64,000 nucleotides of DNA, from positions 1 through 64,000 of the forward strand of contig MPMZ01000009.1 in the NCBI GenBank assembly GCA_002238765.1, given 5' to 3'. Shown here one piece after another: positions 3,513 to 27,795 of this stretch. Under the pieces are notes generated by a model that was not told the origin of the DNA, did not search any database, and saw only the letters and a list, made by a program, of their open reading frames with translations. Position 1 is the stretch's first letter, and every line of letters begins with the position of its first letter. The position numbers and the translations under genes are program-made. Source of the stretch: Nitrospira sp. bin75 (GTDB lineage Bacteria > Nitrospirota > Nitrospiria > Nitrospirales > UBA8639).

Positions 3513-3767
3513 TGTGTATGACGACAGGGCTTTGGCGGGCAACAGAAAAGTTCGACAAGAAAGAAGATTTATAGGATGCCCTATCGAAACGGCAGATCTT
3601 TCGCCAGGTCCTTCGTGTTGCTCAGGACAAGACCCGGAAGACCATGTGGCAGGGTGTGGCGGATGATGGACTCCCATTCATCCCTGGCAAAGATTTCAAC
3701 GAATGAGTGAACGCATACAGGAATGGCAGATCGGAATGGCGTTGGCTATTTTCACATCAACAACGCC
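3513..3767. other. Spacer with decayed coding traces and a repeat end
   Basis: A reading frame on the plus strand ends FRQVLRVAQDKTRKTMWQG...FNE at about 3704, without a start or a recognised family, and is probably a gene remnant. At 3696-3731 lies a degenerate end of the TGTTCAGTCATTC element. Confidence 0.4.
3696..3731. repeat. Degenerate solo end of the MITE-like repeat
   Basis: TCAACGAATGAGTGAACGCA followed by TACAGGAATGGCAGAT matches the right end and outer flank of the copy at 56683-56717 (TCAACGAATGACTGAACACA, TACGGGAATGACAGAT) with few changes. Confidence 0.6.
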
Positions 3768-4139
3768 CTAGAGCAGTTTGACGAGCGCAACAATCAGCGT
3801 GCCTTGGGCAATCATCGCCGTCACCATCCATTTCAACAGGTCCACTTTGGAGGCTTGAATATCAGCCTGAAGCCTAAGCTTGACCGCCTCAAGTTTCGCT
3901 TCAAGCTCGGCCTTAACCGCGGCCTTAACCGCTTCAAGGTTCGCCTTAATCGACTCGGTCTCCAACTTGACCGTTTCGATATCCGCCTTGACCGCCAGAA
4001 TATCGACCTTGGTGGCCAGGTTGCTGTTGAGCAGTTGGACCTGCTCTTTCGCAAGGGCCTCGGCCTGTTGTTCCGTAAAGCCGCTTTCGGTCAGATTTTT
4101 GACAAATTGATGAGTATCAAAGGCGATCGCTTCATTCAT
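3768..4139 (-). CDS. DUF1640/CCDC90-like coiled-coil membrane protein
   Basis: A 123-residue protein. It starts with AFDTHQFVKNLTESGFTEQQAEALA, the characteristic opening of DUF1640 proteins. A heptad-rich coiled coil follows (about residues 35-100, KVDILAVKADIETVKLE and on) and then one C-terminal membrane helix (LKWMVTAMIAQGTLIVALVKLL). The layout matches bacterial relatives of mitochondrial MCUR1/CCDC90. These are small inner-membrane proteins of unknown function in bacteria. The many repeats of VKA/LEA reflect the coiled coil. A run of similar codons gives open frames in all registers, but only this one makes a recognisable protein. Confidence 0.75.
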   Translation of the reverse strand: MNEAIAFDTHQFVKNLTESGFTEQQAEALAKEQVQLLNSNLATKVDILAVKADIETVKLETESIKANLEAVKAAVKAELEAKLEAVKLRLQADIQASKVDLLKWMVTAMIAQGTLIVALVKLL

Positions 4140-4179
4140 GCCATGATTCTAGTCCGCGCCATGACCAAATGCAATGCCT

Positions 4180-4226
4180 CCCACCTCTTATGACCCTTGG
4201 AATGGGTAATAAGGGAGGTGTGGGAT
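4180..4226 (-). terminator. Imperfect hairpin downstream of the WYL gene
   Basis: TCCCACCTCTTATGACCC pairs imperfectly with GGGTAATAAGGGAGGTGTGGGA around a short loop. It lies 33 bp after the stop of the WYL gene and before the DUF1640 gene. Confidence 0.4.
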
Positions 4227-4258
4227 GTGTCTTGTCTTTCAGCCGCAAGCGGCCAACG

Positions 4259-5248
4259 TCAATCGCCATGATGCGCCGCGAGGGACGCGCACATGTCGGC
4301 CAGGTACCGGCGGAGCTTGGCCGGCTGCTCGATTGTGACGCCCTCTCCCCACGTGATCAGGTGCCAGCATATCTCGTTGATGCCCCCCGCCTTGAACCGC
4401 ACGGTCAGTGATTTGTCCTTGTTTTTGACGGTGGTCTGGTCCGGATGGAAGAGGAACGTCTTGGCGTCTGGTGCCGCCACGGCGTCGAAGCGCAGGACGA
4501 CGTCCATGGGCTCTTCCTGGAAGACGCCGAATGAACGCCTGGCATACGTTCGGAGATCGAAATCCTGGTCGCGCGTAAACGTCTCATCGGTCATCTCCGG
4601 CTTGCTCATGTTCGAGAGACGCCAGAGCCGCATATCGTTCCCGCGATCGGTTCGGCCCACCAGGAACGCGCGGTTCCCGTAGAGCAGGCCATAAGGCTGG
4701 ACATGCCGATGACTTCGTCGCCCGGTCGATTGCGCACGATAGCGGAACGTGACTATGCGGCAGGCCTTGAGGGCCTCGCGCAGGAGCGGCAACAGGCCCT
4801 CGGCAAGTCGGGGTTTTGGTCCGGGGCGCATGGCCAGGCCCTCGGCTTCCATCAGCGCTTCCCAATCGGTCTCAAGTTGGCGTAGCGATTTGTCGGGCAA
4901 GGTGGCCCGAATCTTGGCGGCCAGGTCTCGCAAGAGGGTTGCCCGCTCGCCCATGCCTGCGCGCTCCAACGTCTCGGCCGCGGACGAGAGTTCCGTCAAT
5001 TCCTCAGGCGACACGGAGACGAATTGCTGCAGGACGGGTGACTGCAACCGCCAATAGCGTTTCCTTTCCTCCCTGTCTTCCACCGGGATCAGTGGTCCGA
5101 ACGCCTCATCGACCGCGTCGCGCAGGCGCTCCGCCGTCCGCCGGCTGATGGCGAATTCGGTTCGGATATCATCGAGGGTCATGCCGCCCCTTGAGCCTTG
5201 GAGGCGCATGGCTAATCGCACGATGTCTTTTGCTCGTTCGTAGCGCAT
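4259..5248 (-). CDS. WYL-domain transcriptional regulator
   Basis: A 329-residue protein. Residues 1-60 form a winged HTH of the DeoR/YafY type (MTLDDIRTEFAISRRTAERL). Residues about 150-235 form a WYL domain (IVTFRYRAQSTGRR, HVQPYGLLYGNRAFLVGRTD), and the C-terminal 90 residues a WCX extension (MDVVLRFDAVAAPDA, IEQPAKLRRYLADMC). WYL proteins bind a ligand, possibly nucleic acid or a nucleotide, and in several defence islands act as repressors (BrxR/CapW type). The gene follows the double-AAA+ gene on the same strand, with a 256-bp gap filled by repeats. It probably regulates that gene, but this is inference. Confidence 0.85.
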   Translation of the reverse strand: MRYERAKDIVRLAMRLQGSRGGMTLDDIRTEFAISRRTAERLRDAVDEAFGPLIPVEDREERKRYWRLQSPVLQQFVSVSPEELTELSSAAETLERAGMGERATLLRDLAAKIRATLPDKSLRQLETDWEALMEAEGLAMRPGPKPRLAEGLLPLLREALKACRIVTFRYRAQSTGRRSHRHVQPYGLLYGNRAFLVGRTDRGNDMRLWRLSNMSKPEMTDETFTRDQDFDLRTYARRSFGVFQEEPMDVVLRFDAVAAPDAKTFLFHPDQTTVKNKDKSLTVRFKAGGINEICWHLITWGEGVTIEQPAKLRRYLADMCASLAAHHGD

Positions 5249-23184: not shown

Positions 23185-24023
23185 TTATTCCTCTAGGACC
23201 CAGGTGTCCTTGGTGCCGCCGCCCTGGCTGGAATTGACGACCAGCGATCCCTTGTTCAACGCGACGCGGGTCAGCCCGCCGGGAATCATATGGATCTCTT
23301 CGGGCGAAACCAGAACAAAGACACGCAGGTCAACGTGGCGCGGGTCAAGGCCGTTCTTGGTCAGAATCGGTGTGGTCGACAGCGACAGGGTGGGCTGGGC
23401 AATATACTTGCCGGGACTGGCTTCCAATTTGTTCCGGAACGCGACGAGTTCCTCGTTGCTGGCGGTCGGCCCGACCAGCATGCCGTACCCGCCAGAACCA
23501 TGCACCTCCTTGACGACCAACTCGGACAGGTGGTCCAGCACGTAGCGGAGCGCATCAGGCTCGGAGCAACGCCAGGTCTGCACGTTGTTCAGCAGCGCCT
23601 TTTCGCCCGTATAGAACTCGATGAGGTCCGGCATATACGAATAGACGGCCTTATCATCGGCAATGCCCGTGCCGGGCGCGTTGGCGATGGTCACCCCGCC
23701 GGCCCTATAGACGTCGAAAATGCCCGGCACCCCCAGGAGTGACTGCGGATTGAAGTTGAGCGGGTCCAGGTAATCGTCGTCCACGCGTCTGTAAATGACG
23801 TCAATGGGGGCGTACCCTTGGGTGGTGCGCATGGCGACGCGGCCATCGACCACGCGCAGATCGTGACCTTCGACCAGTTCCGCGCCCATTTGGCCGGCCA
23901 GGAACGCGTGCTCGAAATACGCCGAATTGTAAATGCCTGGCGTCAGCACCGCGATAACCGGTTGCCCCTTGCACGAACGCGGTACGGAGTTGCCGAGCGA
24001 GCGTCGCAGGTTTTTGTGATCGC
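23185..24023 (-). pseudogene. Circularly permuted type-2 ATP-grasp protein, 5' part lost at the IS end
   Basis: The C-terminal 280 residues are normal: [56 protein letters not shown] and the final [15 protein letters not shown] fit CP ATP-grasp (DUF404/407) proteins. In the family about 200 residues come before [14 protein letters not shown]. Here only about 20 remain before the sequence meets the inverted repeat of the IS1595-type unit at 24024. The missing part is not on the other side (27786 onward). An ORF reads through into the element from 24198, but those residues are not native. The gene is therefore probably non-functional; whether the downstream alpha-E and transglutaminase genes remain expressed is unknown. 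Confidence 0.85.
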
Positions 24024-24043
24024 AATTTCCTAGTTTAAGGTAT
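24024..24043 (+). repeat. Left inverted repeat of the IS1595-type unit
   Basis: AATTTCCTAGTTTAAGGTAT, identical over 20 bp to the reverse complement of 27766-27785. Its outer edge coincides with the break in the ATP-grasp gene. Confidence 0.9.
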
Positions 24044-24298
24044 AATTTTATGCGTGTCAAGTATTGACCCGTCCCCATCCCTCTGCTATGGTTCCCATCA
24101 CTATCCGTTGGGGCTGCCCTTGTCGGGTCGCCCGTGAAATACAAGAGCCGTGTTCGCTGTTCCCTGGTGGCCACCAGGACGGCGAAAGGCCTTGCCAACC
24201 GGTAAATACATGGGATCTCCTGATTGCCTCAACGGATAGGCCGGCCAGGCCTATGTAACGGGCACTCATTCACCTTTTTTCATTTTAGGAGTCATATT

Positions 24299-25174
24299 AT
24301 GAAACACGCTTCTTTGGGCGCGGTGGCGCTCAGCATCACCATTTTACTTGCTGCTTGTGGAGGCGGGGGCGGGCGTAGCCCGTCTACTGCCTTGGGTGAC
24401 CCTCCGGCCGGTCTCACCCCAAGCCAAGTCCGGGAAGACATTGCCGCGATTGGCCGTAGCGCCAATTCTCTCATTCTGTCCGATCTGATTACGACGCCAC
24501 GGAGCGCCGTGGTTCCCAATGAACGTACATCCTGTTTCGGTAGTGACTGCGAGCCGTCGTGGGGGGAACCGTACTATGACCCGCAGACTTTAAGCCAGAT
24601 TGACCCAGACGCTACCCTGCGAAGCGGCGCACCGCAGTATGGGATCAATTACGCCGAGATCACTGGGCGTCAGTCCGTGCGAGAGCTTGACGAGGGCCTT
24701 GATGCTTCAGTGGATTACCGGGTCTATGGGGGATGGCTGAGCACGAACTTTTTTGGCGTCAAGGTGGATCGTTGGCGGGGTCAGGGTCGATACGGCAGCA
24801 TCGAAGGCTTAGAAACCCTCCTTGCGTATTCAGCCGGCACCGCCAGCGGGTCCAACCCCGTGACCGGCTCAGCCGAATGGACGGGCCTAGTCGTGGCGCT
24901 GGATCGCACGGCGCCGGATCAGGTCGTCAACGGTCAGGCCGCGCTAACCTATGACTTCGGCGACGCGACGTTGGACGTCCTGTTCAGTAATCTTCGGGGA
25001 GCCCGGGCGTATGGCGATCTGTCTTGGAACGAGCTGGCGGTGACCAATGGTCGATTCAGCTAGGGGAGCGGGGCGAACTTGATTGACGGGACGTTCTACG
25101 GGGACGGACACGAAGAAGCTGGCGGGGTATTTGAACGGAGCAACCTTGTTGGTGGATTTGGAGCTAAACGGTGA
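24299..25174 (+). pseudogene. TbpB-like (transferrin-binding-protein-like) lipoprotein with in-frame TAG
   Basis: The frame begins with a lipoprotein signal (LLAACGGGGG, lipid-bound Cys 20) after a TTTTAGGAG ribosome site. 254 residues run to a TAG at 25061-25063. The barrel segments NPVTGSAEWTGLVVALDR, LTYDFGDATLDVLF and DLSWNELAVTNGRFS match C-lobe repeats of TbpB-like proteins. After the TAG the same frame continues with IDGTFYGDGHEEAGGVFERS and NLVGGFGAKR, the highly typical family C-terminus, to TGA at 25172-25174. So the original gene is 291 codons with one internal amber codon. Loss of the last strands would break the barrel. Either it is a recent nonsense mutation, readthrough occurs, or there is a base error. 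Confidence 0.8.
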
Positions 25175-25208
25175 CTATGGTAAACTGACCTTACCAACTA
25201 TAAAACGC

Positions 25209-25244
25209 ACAAACGGCGTAGGGTTGGAGCCCTACGCCGTTTGT
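25209..25244 (+). terminator. Strong hairpin after the TbpB-like gene
   Basis: A 15-bp perfect stem ACAAACGGCGTAGGG / CCCTACGCCGTTTGT with loop TTGGAG (25224-25229). It lies 35 bp after the TGA. There is no long T run, so it may block rather than release, but the stem strength supports a terminator. Confidence 0.7.
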
Positions 25245-25276
25245 CATTCACCTAAACCTTTAGCCAGGAGGTGAAC

Positions 25277-25522
25277 ATGGATCGCCAGCGGTCCCTCTTA
25301 CCGTATCAAGATTCTCCCGATTCCACAACTCCCCAGCCCACGGTCCTGATTGTCGAGAATGTGGCCCAAGCCGTCCGCGAGCGACAGGCCCAAGAGGAAG
25401 CCGAGCGTCGAAGCGACTTGGTCCATCTGCACGGCCTCAGTGCGGCACTCGGCCGCTATGCGCTCATCACGACGGCGACCACGGCAGGAGACGACAACAT
25501 GTTCAAAGCGTTGGTGCGGTAA
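25277..25522 (+). CDS. Small hypothetical protein (IS passenger)
   Basis: An 81-residue protein. It has a very good ribosome site (AGGAGGTGA) directly before ATG 25277. The sequence is Gln/Glu/Ala-rich, with a predicted helix (VAQAVRERQAQEEAERRS) and a C-terminal MFKALVR. No family or motif was recognised. It lies inside the transposable unit, just after the terminator hairpin, and has codon use like its neighbours. Its function is unknown. Confidence 0.5.
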   Translation: MDRQRSLLPYQDSPDSTTPQPTVLIVENVAQAVRERQAQEEAERRSDLVHLHGLSAALGRYALITTATTAGDDNMFKALVR

Positions 25523-25615
25523 GCTGTGGGAGGTAGCCACCGAGGGGGGGACGAGGAGAGAGTAGCCTTCGCCCTCCCTCTCATTCTAGGCGATCAATTC
25601 CTTGAGAGGAGGAAA

Positions 25616-25909
25616 ATGAATATCGAAAACACAAGAGAATTTGGGGAACAGGGGAAAAACTCTGCCTCTGTAAGGATCAAAGGGGTAGCAATAGAAGAAG
25701 ATGCGACGGCTGAGGTTGCTATTGAATGTAAGGCAACCAACTGTTCGGCGCCCGTTTTTGCTTGCAGCGTGAACCTTAAGCAAGAGGATCTTGAAGAGCA
25801 AGAACTTTCGAAAATTTCGGCTGTCGGTATAGGGATATTACTCGAAAACCTCGAAGTTTGGAGACATGAGTTAGTGAAATTGCAAAAGCAGTTTGATGAA
25901 TCGCCCTGA
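25616..25909 (+). CDS. Small hypothetical protein (IS passenger)
   Basis: A 97-residue acidic protein, with GAGAGGAGG ribosome site before ATG 25616. The sequence has beta-like repeats (ASVRIKGVAIEEDATAEVAIE), then a C-terminal helix (GILLENLEVWRHELVKLQKQF). No family is recognised. It is AT-richer than the preceding gene and ends at a bidirectional terminator shared with the convergent P63C gene. Confidence 0.55.
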   Translation: MNIENTREFGEQGKNSASVRIKGVAIEEDATAEVAIECKATNCSAPVFACSVNLKQEDLEEQELSKISAVGIGILLENLEVWRHELVKLQKQFDESP

Positions 25910-25914
25910 GACAA

Positions 25915-25939
25915 GGGCGAGGTCACGACGACCTCGCCC
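25915..25939. terminator. Bidirectional terminator between convergent passenger genes
   Basis: GGGCGAGGTC-ACGAC-GACCTCGCCC forms a 10-bp perfect stem with a 5-base loop, directly between the stop at 25909 (plus) and the stop at 25940 (minus). Confidence 0.75.
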
Positions 25940-26839
25940 CTATTCTTCCTCAAGCGGGAGCGGAATTTGATCCTTATAGGCAGGAAGGGCGCGGTTGATA
26001 TTTCGTTCAAAGCTGCCCCAATTTGCCGACGCTTTCATGAGGGCAATCACGGCCGCTAAGTGTTCTTTAAGTTTGGGATGCCCCAAATCAGGAGTAAACC
26101 ATTGATGGAATTTTGCCCGGCGCTTTCCCGTTGGCGATCGAGGATTTAACCGCTTGAGTTCTTCGAAAACTCCAGGAGCCAAGCGGTTGTAGACAAAATC
26201 GTTGGTATATTGCGCAATGATGATGGGACGTTTCACGCCATCTGGCCCAGGCCAACCCTTGAGCCGAAAAATCTCCTGATAGAATTCATAGGGGAACGTC
26301 TTCGTCCAGGGCTGTAATTCCTTGGCAATGAATTTTTCCAAAATCGTGGCGAGGGCGGTTTTGGCTCGCTGATCCTGATAGCCCGTCGCTTCATCAATGA
26401 GTCCAATAATGCCAATTCGTGCAAACCCTCGATGGAGAATGCGACACGCGGTGGCGATATGAATTTGGTTGTCATGGAGAACCCCGGCGGCATGCGCATC
26501 CAGGAAGATTTCGCAAATTTGAGGCAAGAAATCCGCCCGATACCCAATCATTTGCTTGCCCTTGTACTCAAAAAGAATGGGACTTGAATTCTCACCTAAG
26601 TCATTGGGAATAAACGGTTCTAGGTTCCTCGCGGTCAAAAAAACAGGAAGTTTGAATTCCTGATCATATTTCCGTCCACCCTTGGCCTTCGAGGTCCGAC
26701 CAATCGCCCGCAAGACGCTCGTTCGATTTAAGACGCGCGTTTCGTCTTCTAGGACATAGCATTGAAGTTCAAGATTTCCGATCCGAAGCGGCTGTTCGGG
26801 CGTTCCAGCAATGACTTTCAATAGCGGTTGTTGGTTCAT
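25940..26839 (-). CDS. P63C-domain protein (IS1595 passenger)
   Basis: A 299-residue protein. Its C-terminal half has the P63C signature: RAKTALATILEKFIAKELQP, WTKTFPYEFYQEIFRLKGW, YTNDFVYNRLAPGVFEELK and HQWFTPDLGHPKLKEHL. The N-terminal part (LRIGNLELQCYVLEDETRVL) looks like a Bro-N/KilA-like beginning of phage antirepressor-like proteins. P63C proteins have no known function but often ride on mobile elements. The ATG overlaps the stop of the transposase gene (ATGA, 26836-26839), so the two are translationally coupled. Confidence 0.85.
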   Translation of the reverse strand: MNQQPLLKVIAGTPEQPLRIGNLELQCYVLEDETRVLNRTSVLRAIGRTSKAKGGRKYDQEFKLPVFLTARNLEPFIPNDLGENSSPILFEYKGKQMIGYRADFLPQICEIFLDAHAAGVLHDNQIHIATACRILHRGFARIGIIGLIDEATGYQDQRAKTALATILEKFIAKELQPWTKTFPYEFYQEIFRLKGWPGPDGVKRPIIIAQYTNDFVYNRLAPGVFEELKRLNPRSPTGKRRAKFHQWFTPDLGHPKLKEHLAAVIALMKASANWGSFERNINRALPAYKDQIPLPLEEE

Positions 26840-27705
26840 GCGACTAACCCCACCCCTCGCTTAATCGTGGATTCAAAGGCCGCCATTGCAGGCATCTTCC
26901 GGCGATTGTACCGGAAACAGAATTCGTCCACGTAGCGTTGCAGGTGCTTCCGACTCACGGAATGATATTGCCCGAACATCCCCCGCTTGAGCAGACTCCA
27001 AAAATTCTCAATCGTATTGGTGTGAATGTCGCCGTCCACATACCAGATTTCATGATTGATCACGTCATGGGGCAGAATCCGGTTCATCCGGTTGTACGCC
27101 TTATAGCCATCGGTCATCAGATGGGCGGCCCGCGTGTCTACCCGATCCCGGACAAACGCCCGCATGTCCTTCCCTTTCAGTTCATCTTTCTTGGTGGCCT
27201 TGGCCGTCACATGGCCTCCGCGTTCGACGGCTCCCACAACCGGCGCCTTCTTGGTGCCTCGGCCTGGCGGGTTATTCTTGGTGCCTTTTCGTGGCTTCCC
27301 ACCCACATACGTCTCGTCCATTTCGATAATGCCCGTTAAGAGTTTCCGGTGCTCCTGTTGTGACATGGCCTTCCGAATCTGCATCCCAATGCGCCAGGCC
27401 GTGTTTTTGTTCACTTGCAGATCGCGGGAGAGTTGCAGGGCCGACAAGCCCTTCTTGGCGTTCAAGACCAAGGACACAGCCAGCAACCATTTCTGTAAGG
27501 GTAGGTGGGTTTGGTGAAAGATCGTGCCGACCGTCACCGAAAAGGAAGTCTTGCAGGTGTAGCAGTAGTGCCGGTGCTGATTGCGAGTGGTTTTTGTAGA
27601 CTTGCAGTAGGGACAGATCGGGGTATCACCCCAACGCACTTGTTCCAAATACCGGATGCATTCGGATTGATTCTCGAACCGGCTGACAATTTCCATGATG
27701 TTCAT
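26836..27705 (-). CDS. IS1595-family transposase (ISXO2-like)
   Basis: A 289-residue protein. An N-terminal zinc ribbon (CPYCKSTK and CYTCKTSFSVTVGTIF) is followed by the helix-turn-helix (LSALQLSRDLQVNKNTAWRI) and an ISXO2-like DDE domain. The first Asp-Glu is in IIEMDETYVGGKPRKG, the second in HLMTDGYKAYN, and the third block in TNTIENFWSLLKRGMFGQYH. This is the mobilising enzyme of the 3.76-kb unit and appears intact. The ATG at 27705 has GGAGG 8 bases upstream; an in-frame TTG at 27720 is less likely. Confidence 0.95.
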   Translation of the reverse strand: MNIMEIVSRFENQSECIRYLEQVRWGDTPICPYCKSTKTTRNQHRHYCYTCKTSFSVTVGTIFHQTHLPLQKWLLAVSLVLNAKKGLSALQLSRDLQVNKNTAWRIGMQIRKAMSQQEHRKLLTGIIEMDETYVGGKPRKGTKNNPPGRGTKKAPVVGAVERGGHVTAKATKKDELKGKDMRAFVRDRVDTRAAHLMTDGYKAYNRMNRILPHDVINHEIWYVDGDIHTNTIENFWSLLKRGMFGQYHSVSRKHLQRYVDEFCFRYNRRKMPAMAAFESTIKRGVGLVA

Positions 27706-27765
27706 GTAGCATACCTCCAAGTAGGATCGTTGAAGGCATACTACATGACGTAGACAAACTTGTCA

Positions 27766-27785
27766 ATACCTTAAACTAGGAAATT
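27766..27785 (-). repeat. Right inverted repeat of the IS1595-type unit
   Basis: ATACCTTAAACTAGGAAATT, the exact reverse complement of 24024-24043. It lies 60 bp upstream of the transposase start. Confidence 0.9.
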
Positions 27786-27795
27786 TCGTTTTGGG

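Follow-up and report, generated by a model that had tools for sequence, protein, structure and literature searches.

Insertion sequences of the IS1595 family duplicate 8 bp of their target (PMC12561309), and the style of organization known as transporter insertion sequence (tIS), in which passenger genes are carried along by the element, has already been described (PMC3129680, PMC11891212); according to the passage of PMC11891212 that cites Siguier et al. 2009, the passenger of one IS1595 tIS, ISNha5, is a transcription regulator. Here, we analyzed a 64,000-nt stretch of Nitrospira sp. bin75 (positions 1 to 64,000 of contig MPMZ01000009.1, assembly GCA_002238765.1, G000 below), hereafter the window, in whose numbering the coordinates of the element are given, and in which positions 24021-27788 are an IS1595-family transposon with passenger genes. 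Like the IS1595 tIS exemplified by ISNha5, this element combines a DDE_Tnp_IS1595 transposase, inverted repeats, 8-bp duplications, and passengers lying inside the ends. Unlike them, it carries a P63C gene coupled to the transposase together with a cassette made of a promoter, a structured RNA, and a surface lipoprotein gene, its family being assigned from Pfam domains.

The RNA that heads this cassette had been absent from the preliminary description of this DNA and is more unusual than the rest of the element. It recalls the regulatory RNAs of bacterial 5′ untranslated regions (5′-UTRs), such as riboswitches and RNA thermometers, in being promoter-proximal, covarying, multi-stem, and shared by unrelated genes of one theme, but differs from the known ones in that it has no match in Rfam, is found in a single genus, and travels in transposons. 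Overall, we consider it quite probable that the locus is an IS1595 tIS with a coupled P63C gene and a passenger consisting of promoter, leader RNA, and surface lipoprotein, that such leaders regulate surface genes, and that such elements spread the cassettes.

An IS1595-Family Element with Several Copies

The inverted ends are perfect over 20 bp (24024-24043 and 27766-27785) and can be prolonged to 23 nt (24021-24043 and 27766-27788) if a single mismatch is allowed, when the chance expectation for such a pair of ends in 4.9 kb is about 1e-5. Elsewhere in the assembly, the contigs C17 and C70 each open with the 127 bp that close the element at its right end, and then continue into differing flanks, so that the element is multi-copy. 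On the left, the insertion has split a host gene of the ATP-grasp type: the flank to the left of the element in the window and C17 together display a 7/8 target duplication (ATCACAAA/ATCCCAAA), and the ATP-grasp frame is restored once the element is removed, the gene being unbroken in three related genomes (G006, G010, and G001), all of which have ATP-grasp, the 2.9 kb, and HU in collinear order. Moreover, a complete sister element with the same ends and a perfect 8/8 duplication (AAGGAGAT) is present in Nitrospira sp. CO36405bin_1 (L065); this element encodes an unbroken lipoprotein of 286 aa and lacks the two orphan open reading frames (ORFs) of the window. All these genomes are draft metagenome-assembled genomes, with one representative per species.

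The transposase matches DDE_Tnp_IS1595 (PF12762) at 1.4e-34 (119.8 bits, cutoff 27) and Zn_ribbon_IS1595 (PF12760) at 2.2e-8 (34.4 bits, cutoff 25.4). An ISXO2/IS1595-type DDE domain preceded by a zinc ribbon, inverted repeats common to independent copies, and an 8-bp duplication thus concur, and the initial proposal of an IS1595-type mobile unit with passengers is borne out by ends recovered elsewhere in the genome (C17, C70) and in another species (L065), by the split target gene, and by the perfect duplication around the sister copy. Expressed from the promoter at the right end, the transposase would act on the 23-nt ends and yield 8-bp target duplications. Insertion sites that differ among related genomes and three distinct right-end junctions in G000 speak of past transposition only.

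A Structured Leader RNA Heads Surface Genes in One Genus

Over the first 233 bp from the left end, identity to the sister element is 90%, against 73% for the transposase–P63C part, and a 155-nt stretch within this segment recurs in the genome. A first covariance model, built from ten leader copies, retrieved 44 matches, spread over 13 of the 14 genomes of the genus, while 133 other genomes gave none. The 43 matches of a second model fell in these 13 genomes again, and 382 other genomes of the phylum were devoid of any. In alignment A2, 94.9% of the pair cells are paired and double-sided changes number 318 versus 85.5 after shuffling (slid controls reaching at most 45%), but these counts are inflated because some of the sequences in A2 had already gone into the model used to fit it; an unfitted MAFFT alignment, independent of the model, displays double-sided changes in 16 of 34 pairs. 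Because G-U far outnumbers A-C in the pair cells (158 vs. 19), an RNA of this strand is favored. A strongly conserved, mostly unpaired core consists of AAATACAAGA and AAATAC, opposed across an internal loop. A CsrA-like motif in the leader was also considered and is speculative. No family of Rfam 15 exceeded its gathering score on the leader (best chance match, E 7.3), permissive thresholds returned chance matches alone, and a scan of viral contigs with the exact core pattern returned nothing. From these comparisons, the leader is to all appearances a new structured RNA family, without Rfam match and confined to one genus.

The position of the leaders is as consistent as their structure. Most have −35 and −10 boxes just 5′ and a Shine–Dalgarno sequence with a start codon 3′, usually 35-45 nt on, and about 38 of 42 head envelope genes. 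Read by eye, the 42 downstream frames comprise about 24 lipoproteins and 1 degenerate lipoprotein, 5 other exported or outer-membrane proteins, 6 glycosyltransferases (GT2, GT8, GT25), 2 small membrane proteins, and 4 frames without clear assignment. A secondary structure backed by covariation, placed between the promoter and the start codon of genes that share a theme, points to a genus-specific cis-regulatory RNA that may control cell-surface genes. In the element, transcription from TTGACC-17-TATGGT (24064-24092) would start at the leader, and the RNA would then fold and control the translation or the stability of the surface gene.

It could be argued that the leader is a constitutive 5′-UTR stabilizer or an RNA thermometer rather than a switch sensing a ligand or a protein, given that its 5′ end forms a long stem, P1, as in stabilizing leaders, and that neither a terminator arrangement nor one sequestering the start codon is demonstrated in it. 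The conserved and mostly unpaired core exceeds the needs of a stabilizer, however, and we find this alternative rather doubtful.

As side observations, four leader copies without clear downstream gene lie in L120, L119, and L136, the last holding two back to back on opposite strands. The genes downstream of the leaders in G000-G013 recall a surface set of the Neisseria type (TbpB-like lipoproteins, an Opa-like porin, GT2/GT8/GT25 glycosyltransferases, an S8 autotransporter) in a genus of the Nitrospira group.

Leader Cassettes within Transposons

Leaders are found within the ends of at least five lineages of IS1595-type elements: that of the window and its sister; C48, with 24-bp perfect ends; C92, with near-perfect ends at 1 and 3354; G003-C89, with the duplication GAAACTTT; and a 945-bp element without transposase, present in at least six copies and flanked by perfect 8-bp duplications where both ends are readable (TTCAATTT, TATTTTTG). 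The ends of the latter resemble those of a transposase-bearing element of the same genome (C57), which likens it to miniature inverted-repeat transposable elements and mobile insertion cassettes (PMC3129680), from which it differs by holding a leader RNA and a small membrane-protein ORF. The element of C86 was also considered as a leader and lipoprotein carrier and was rejected: its inverted repeats enclose just a transposase and a methyltransferase, the leader lying outside.

That the leader sits 55-300 bp inside one end in several element types, and is 97% conserved between the window and G001 elements when the transposase gene is at 73%, would also fit a DNA-level feature of the transposon, such as a subterminal transposase-binding or folding-back element, instead of an RNA regulator of the passenger. 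Yet most of the roughly 42 leaders are outside recognizable elements and nearly all of them still head an envelope gene, with a promoter 5′ and a start codon shortly 3′; in addition, the leader pairs tolerate G-U far more than A-C, as counted above, and the G005 element, which has the same transposase, does without a leader. A purely DNA-level role thus seems very improbable to us.

The reading that we prefer is that of a self-contained surface-gene cassette, with its own promoter, a structured leader of about 155 nt, and then a TbpB-like lipoprotein gene, cassettes of this kind being repeatedly picked up and spread by IS1595-type elements. If so, a gene inserted with its leader would arrive already wired into the surface-gene regulation of its host.

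Besides the inflated counts of A2, several points weigh against this reading. The regulatory role of the leader rests on covariation, position, and the company of genes that it keeps. The location of most leaders at sites without recognizable element leads us to regard the leader as a host-wide feature captured by transposons, not as a transposon part. A second left end was not found, and the assembly joins the right end of the element to the HU promoter with a loss of 2.9 kb. These 2.9 kb, which separate the ATP-grasp and HU genes in the relatives, are found on C17, whose end at the HU promoter is rich in errors, but not on the contig of the window, so that the right-hand join at 27788 is either a deletion variant or a mis-join. 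The ends of the element themselves are not in doubt. As for the discrepancy between the window at 24024/27788 and C17 (L024), a strain variant or a mis-join is possible.

A P63C Partner Shared by Two Transposase Families

The protein encoded next to the transposase matches the P63C domain of Pfam at 3.9e-32. Among the full-length P63C relatives placed on one tree (n = 26), an IS1595 transposase adjoins in 7 and an IS1-type transposase in 13 (20/26 together), and four further P63C–IS1595 pairs are found in viral contigs. The 4-nt overlap of the P63C and IS1595 genes is also seen in L219 and L220, from two further families of the phylum, and at three loci, P63C and IS1-type genes lie together inside inverted ends that are flanked by repeats. 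These IS1-type elements (G025, G397, G052, and others) are like the window element in that P63C adjoins the transposase; they differ in having an IS1-like transposase and a P63C gene that is usually divergent, overlap not being the rule. An IS1-type transposase with a divergent P63C gene inside inverted ends, as observed in L221 (2399-5758), L222 (2139-5033), and L223 (3305-5496), is apparently a recurrent arrangement in Nitrospirota.

Both P63C and the lipoprotein might nonetheless be neutral hitchhikers, with P63C a general baggage of phages and plasmids devoid of any role in transposition. P63C genes indeed occur on their own in many phages and plasmids, and the same genome also has IS1595 elements that lack P63C. 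We hold this scenario to be unlikely in view of the pairing of P63C with two transposase families, of the gene overlap kept in P63C–IS1595 pairs of three families, and of the clustering of transposase partners on the P63C tree (8 changes, a number as low in 4 of 200 shuffles). An accessory or regulator of transposition is, by association, the likely function of P63C, and a DNA-binding or regulatory role would be in keeping with it: translationally coupled to the transposase, the protein would most likely modulate transposition or its expression. The earlier suggestion that P63C helps or controls transposition is therefore strengthened by the conserved overlap and the recurrent pairing in inverted ends, and weakened by the solitary occurrences. 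The AlphaFold model of P63C is of low confidence (pLDDT 62) and a fold match to it was not found in the PDB; in the three papers found to name the "P63C domain," no title or abstract ties the domain to IS1595.

The Lipoprotein Passenger and Its Orphan Neighbors

The lipoprotein has a signal peptide with a lipobox cysteine (MKHASLGAVALSITILLAACGG) and shares 39% identity with its intact counterpart in the sister element. An in-frame TAG at 25061-25063 interrupts it, while the same frame runs on to 25171, and because this stop cuts the protein short, the copy of the window is probably inactive; the frame is intact in L065. The tail beyond the stop resembles TbpB_B_D weakly (23.2 bits, cutoff 26), when the closest relative found for the lipoprotein (L083) exceeds the cutoff with 30.2 bits. 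The AlphaFold model of the window lipoprotein has a pLDDT of 29.

The preliminary description saw in this gene a cargo acquired from another lineage. The nearest relative found, at 70% identity, is a lipoprotein encoded chromosomally within the same genus (G011), which argues against a foreign origin, and by its distribution the family appears to be native to the genus and widespread there. With its lipoprotein signal and a C-terminal TbpB-type barrel motif matched under the Pfam cutoff, the protein is similar to the cargo of type 11 secretion (Slam/SlipAM, DUF560; PMC8406197, PMC12282271); unlike such cargo, its gene is not adjacent to a SlipAM gene, and the window copy is truncated. SlipAM proteins are encoded by 10 of the 14 genomes of the genus, with 4 matches in G000, and the lipoprotein would probably be exported by these type 11 systems. 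Neither of the two orphan ORFs matches a Pfam family or has a relative among the loci examined.

Variable Cargo in Related Elements

Passengers unneeded for transposition, namely the lipoprotein and the orphan ORFs, lie inside the ends, and the comparison of cargo between copies that had been advocated reveals differences among the window, L065, G005, and L229 elements. In G005 (L081), a SocA_Panacea gene and a membrane-protein gene are the cargo of this transposase–P63C core; these two, the latter small, follow each other at 3615-4509 and are possibly a toxin–antitoxin pair. Around the G005 copy, no clear 8-bp duplication was read. In the viral contig L229, a related transposase–P63C pair carries methyltransferase and nuclease-like genes, with the duplication TTCATCTT flanking the ends. 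Other IS1595 elements of G000 have DNA methyltransferases, a type-I-like fusion, a TbpB-domain lipoprotein, and a GT2 glycosyltransferase as cargo. Those carrying DNA methyltransferases include L155 (1-2393), L156 (1-3356), and L078 (1207-3693), one of the enzymes being fused to an Mrr-like domain and one having a type I R-like N-terminus. The transposase and methyltransferase genes of L078 share 4 nt, the start of the second lying over the stop of the first, as for P63C.

Table 1. Features of the element and of its insertion site, in window coordinates.
Feature	Position	Strand	Basis or remark
Host CP-ATP-grasp gene, C-terminal half, interrupted by the element	23185..24033	-	N-terminal half on contig C17; intact in relatives
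Left terminal inverted repeat CGCAATTTCCTAGTTTAAGGTAT	24021..24043	+	Identical in L065 sister element; inverted at C17 and C70
Promoter-like TTGACC-17 nt-TATGGT directly 5′ of leader	24064..24092	+	Read from sequence; similar boxes upstream of most leaders
Putative structured 5′-UTR leader RNA	24098..24256	+	Covariance models R1/R2, covariation, 43-44 copies in genus
TbpB-like surface lipoprotein, MKHASLG...LLAACGG lipobox	24299..25063	+	Ends at in-frame TAG
Rest of lipoprotein frame past TAG: GSGANLIDGTFYGDGHEEAGGVFERSNLVGGFGAKR, then TGA	25064..25174	+	TbpB_B_D 1.1e-4, under Pfam cutoff
15-bp perfect hairpin after lipoprotein gene	25209..25244	+	Possible terminator
Orphan ORF 1, 81 aa	25277..25522	+	Not seen in other loci examined
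Orphan ORF 2, 97 aa	25616..25909	+	Not seen in other loci examined
P63C-domain protein, 299 aa	25940..26839	-	Start codon overlaps transposase stop by 4 nt
IS1595-family DDE transposase with N-terminal zinc ribbon, 289 aa	26836..27705	-	Pfam matches
Promoter-like TTGACA-17 nt-TAGTAT for transposase and P63C	27738..27766	-	Read from sequence; overlaps inner edge of right end
Right terminal inverted repeat	27766..27788	-	22/23 match; 23/23 at C17 and C70 copies

Significance

At the scale of the genus, we give an even chance to the broader hypothesis that a new, genus-specific RNA class leads a surface regulon of lipoproteins, porins, autotransporters, and lipooligosaccharide glycosyltransferases, and that IS1595 transposons, together with an accessory P63C protein shared with IS1-type elements, spread its cassettes and thereby enlarge the regulon. 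P63C, a widespread and uncharacterized domain, would accordingly gain a concrete hypothesis for its function, that of a transposition accessory of IS1 and IS1595 elements. The leader itself would be a new structured RNA to solve, for which some 40 variants occurring in nature and the evident theme of the genes that it heads may serve as a guide to its signal. If this hypothesis is true, the genes that transposons move here would come equipped with a regulatory RNA compatible with the host, which would be a direct route of regulon growth.

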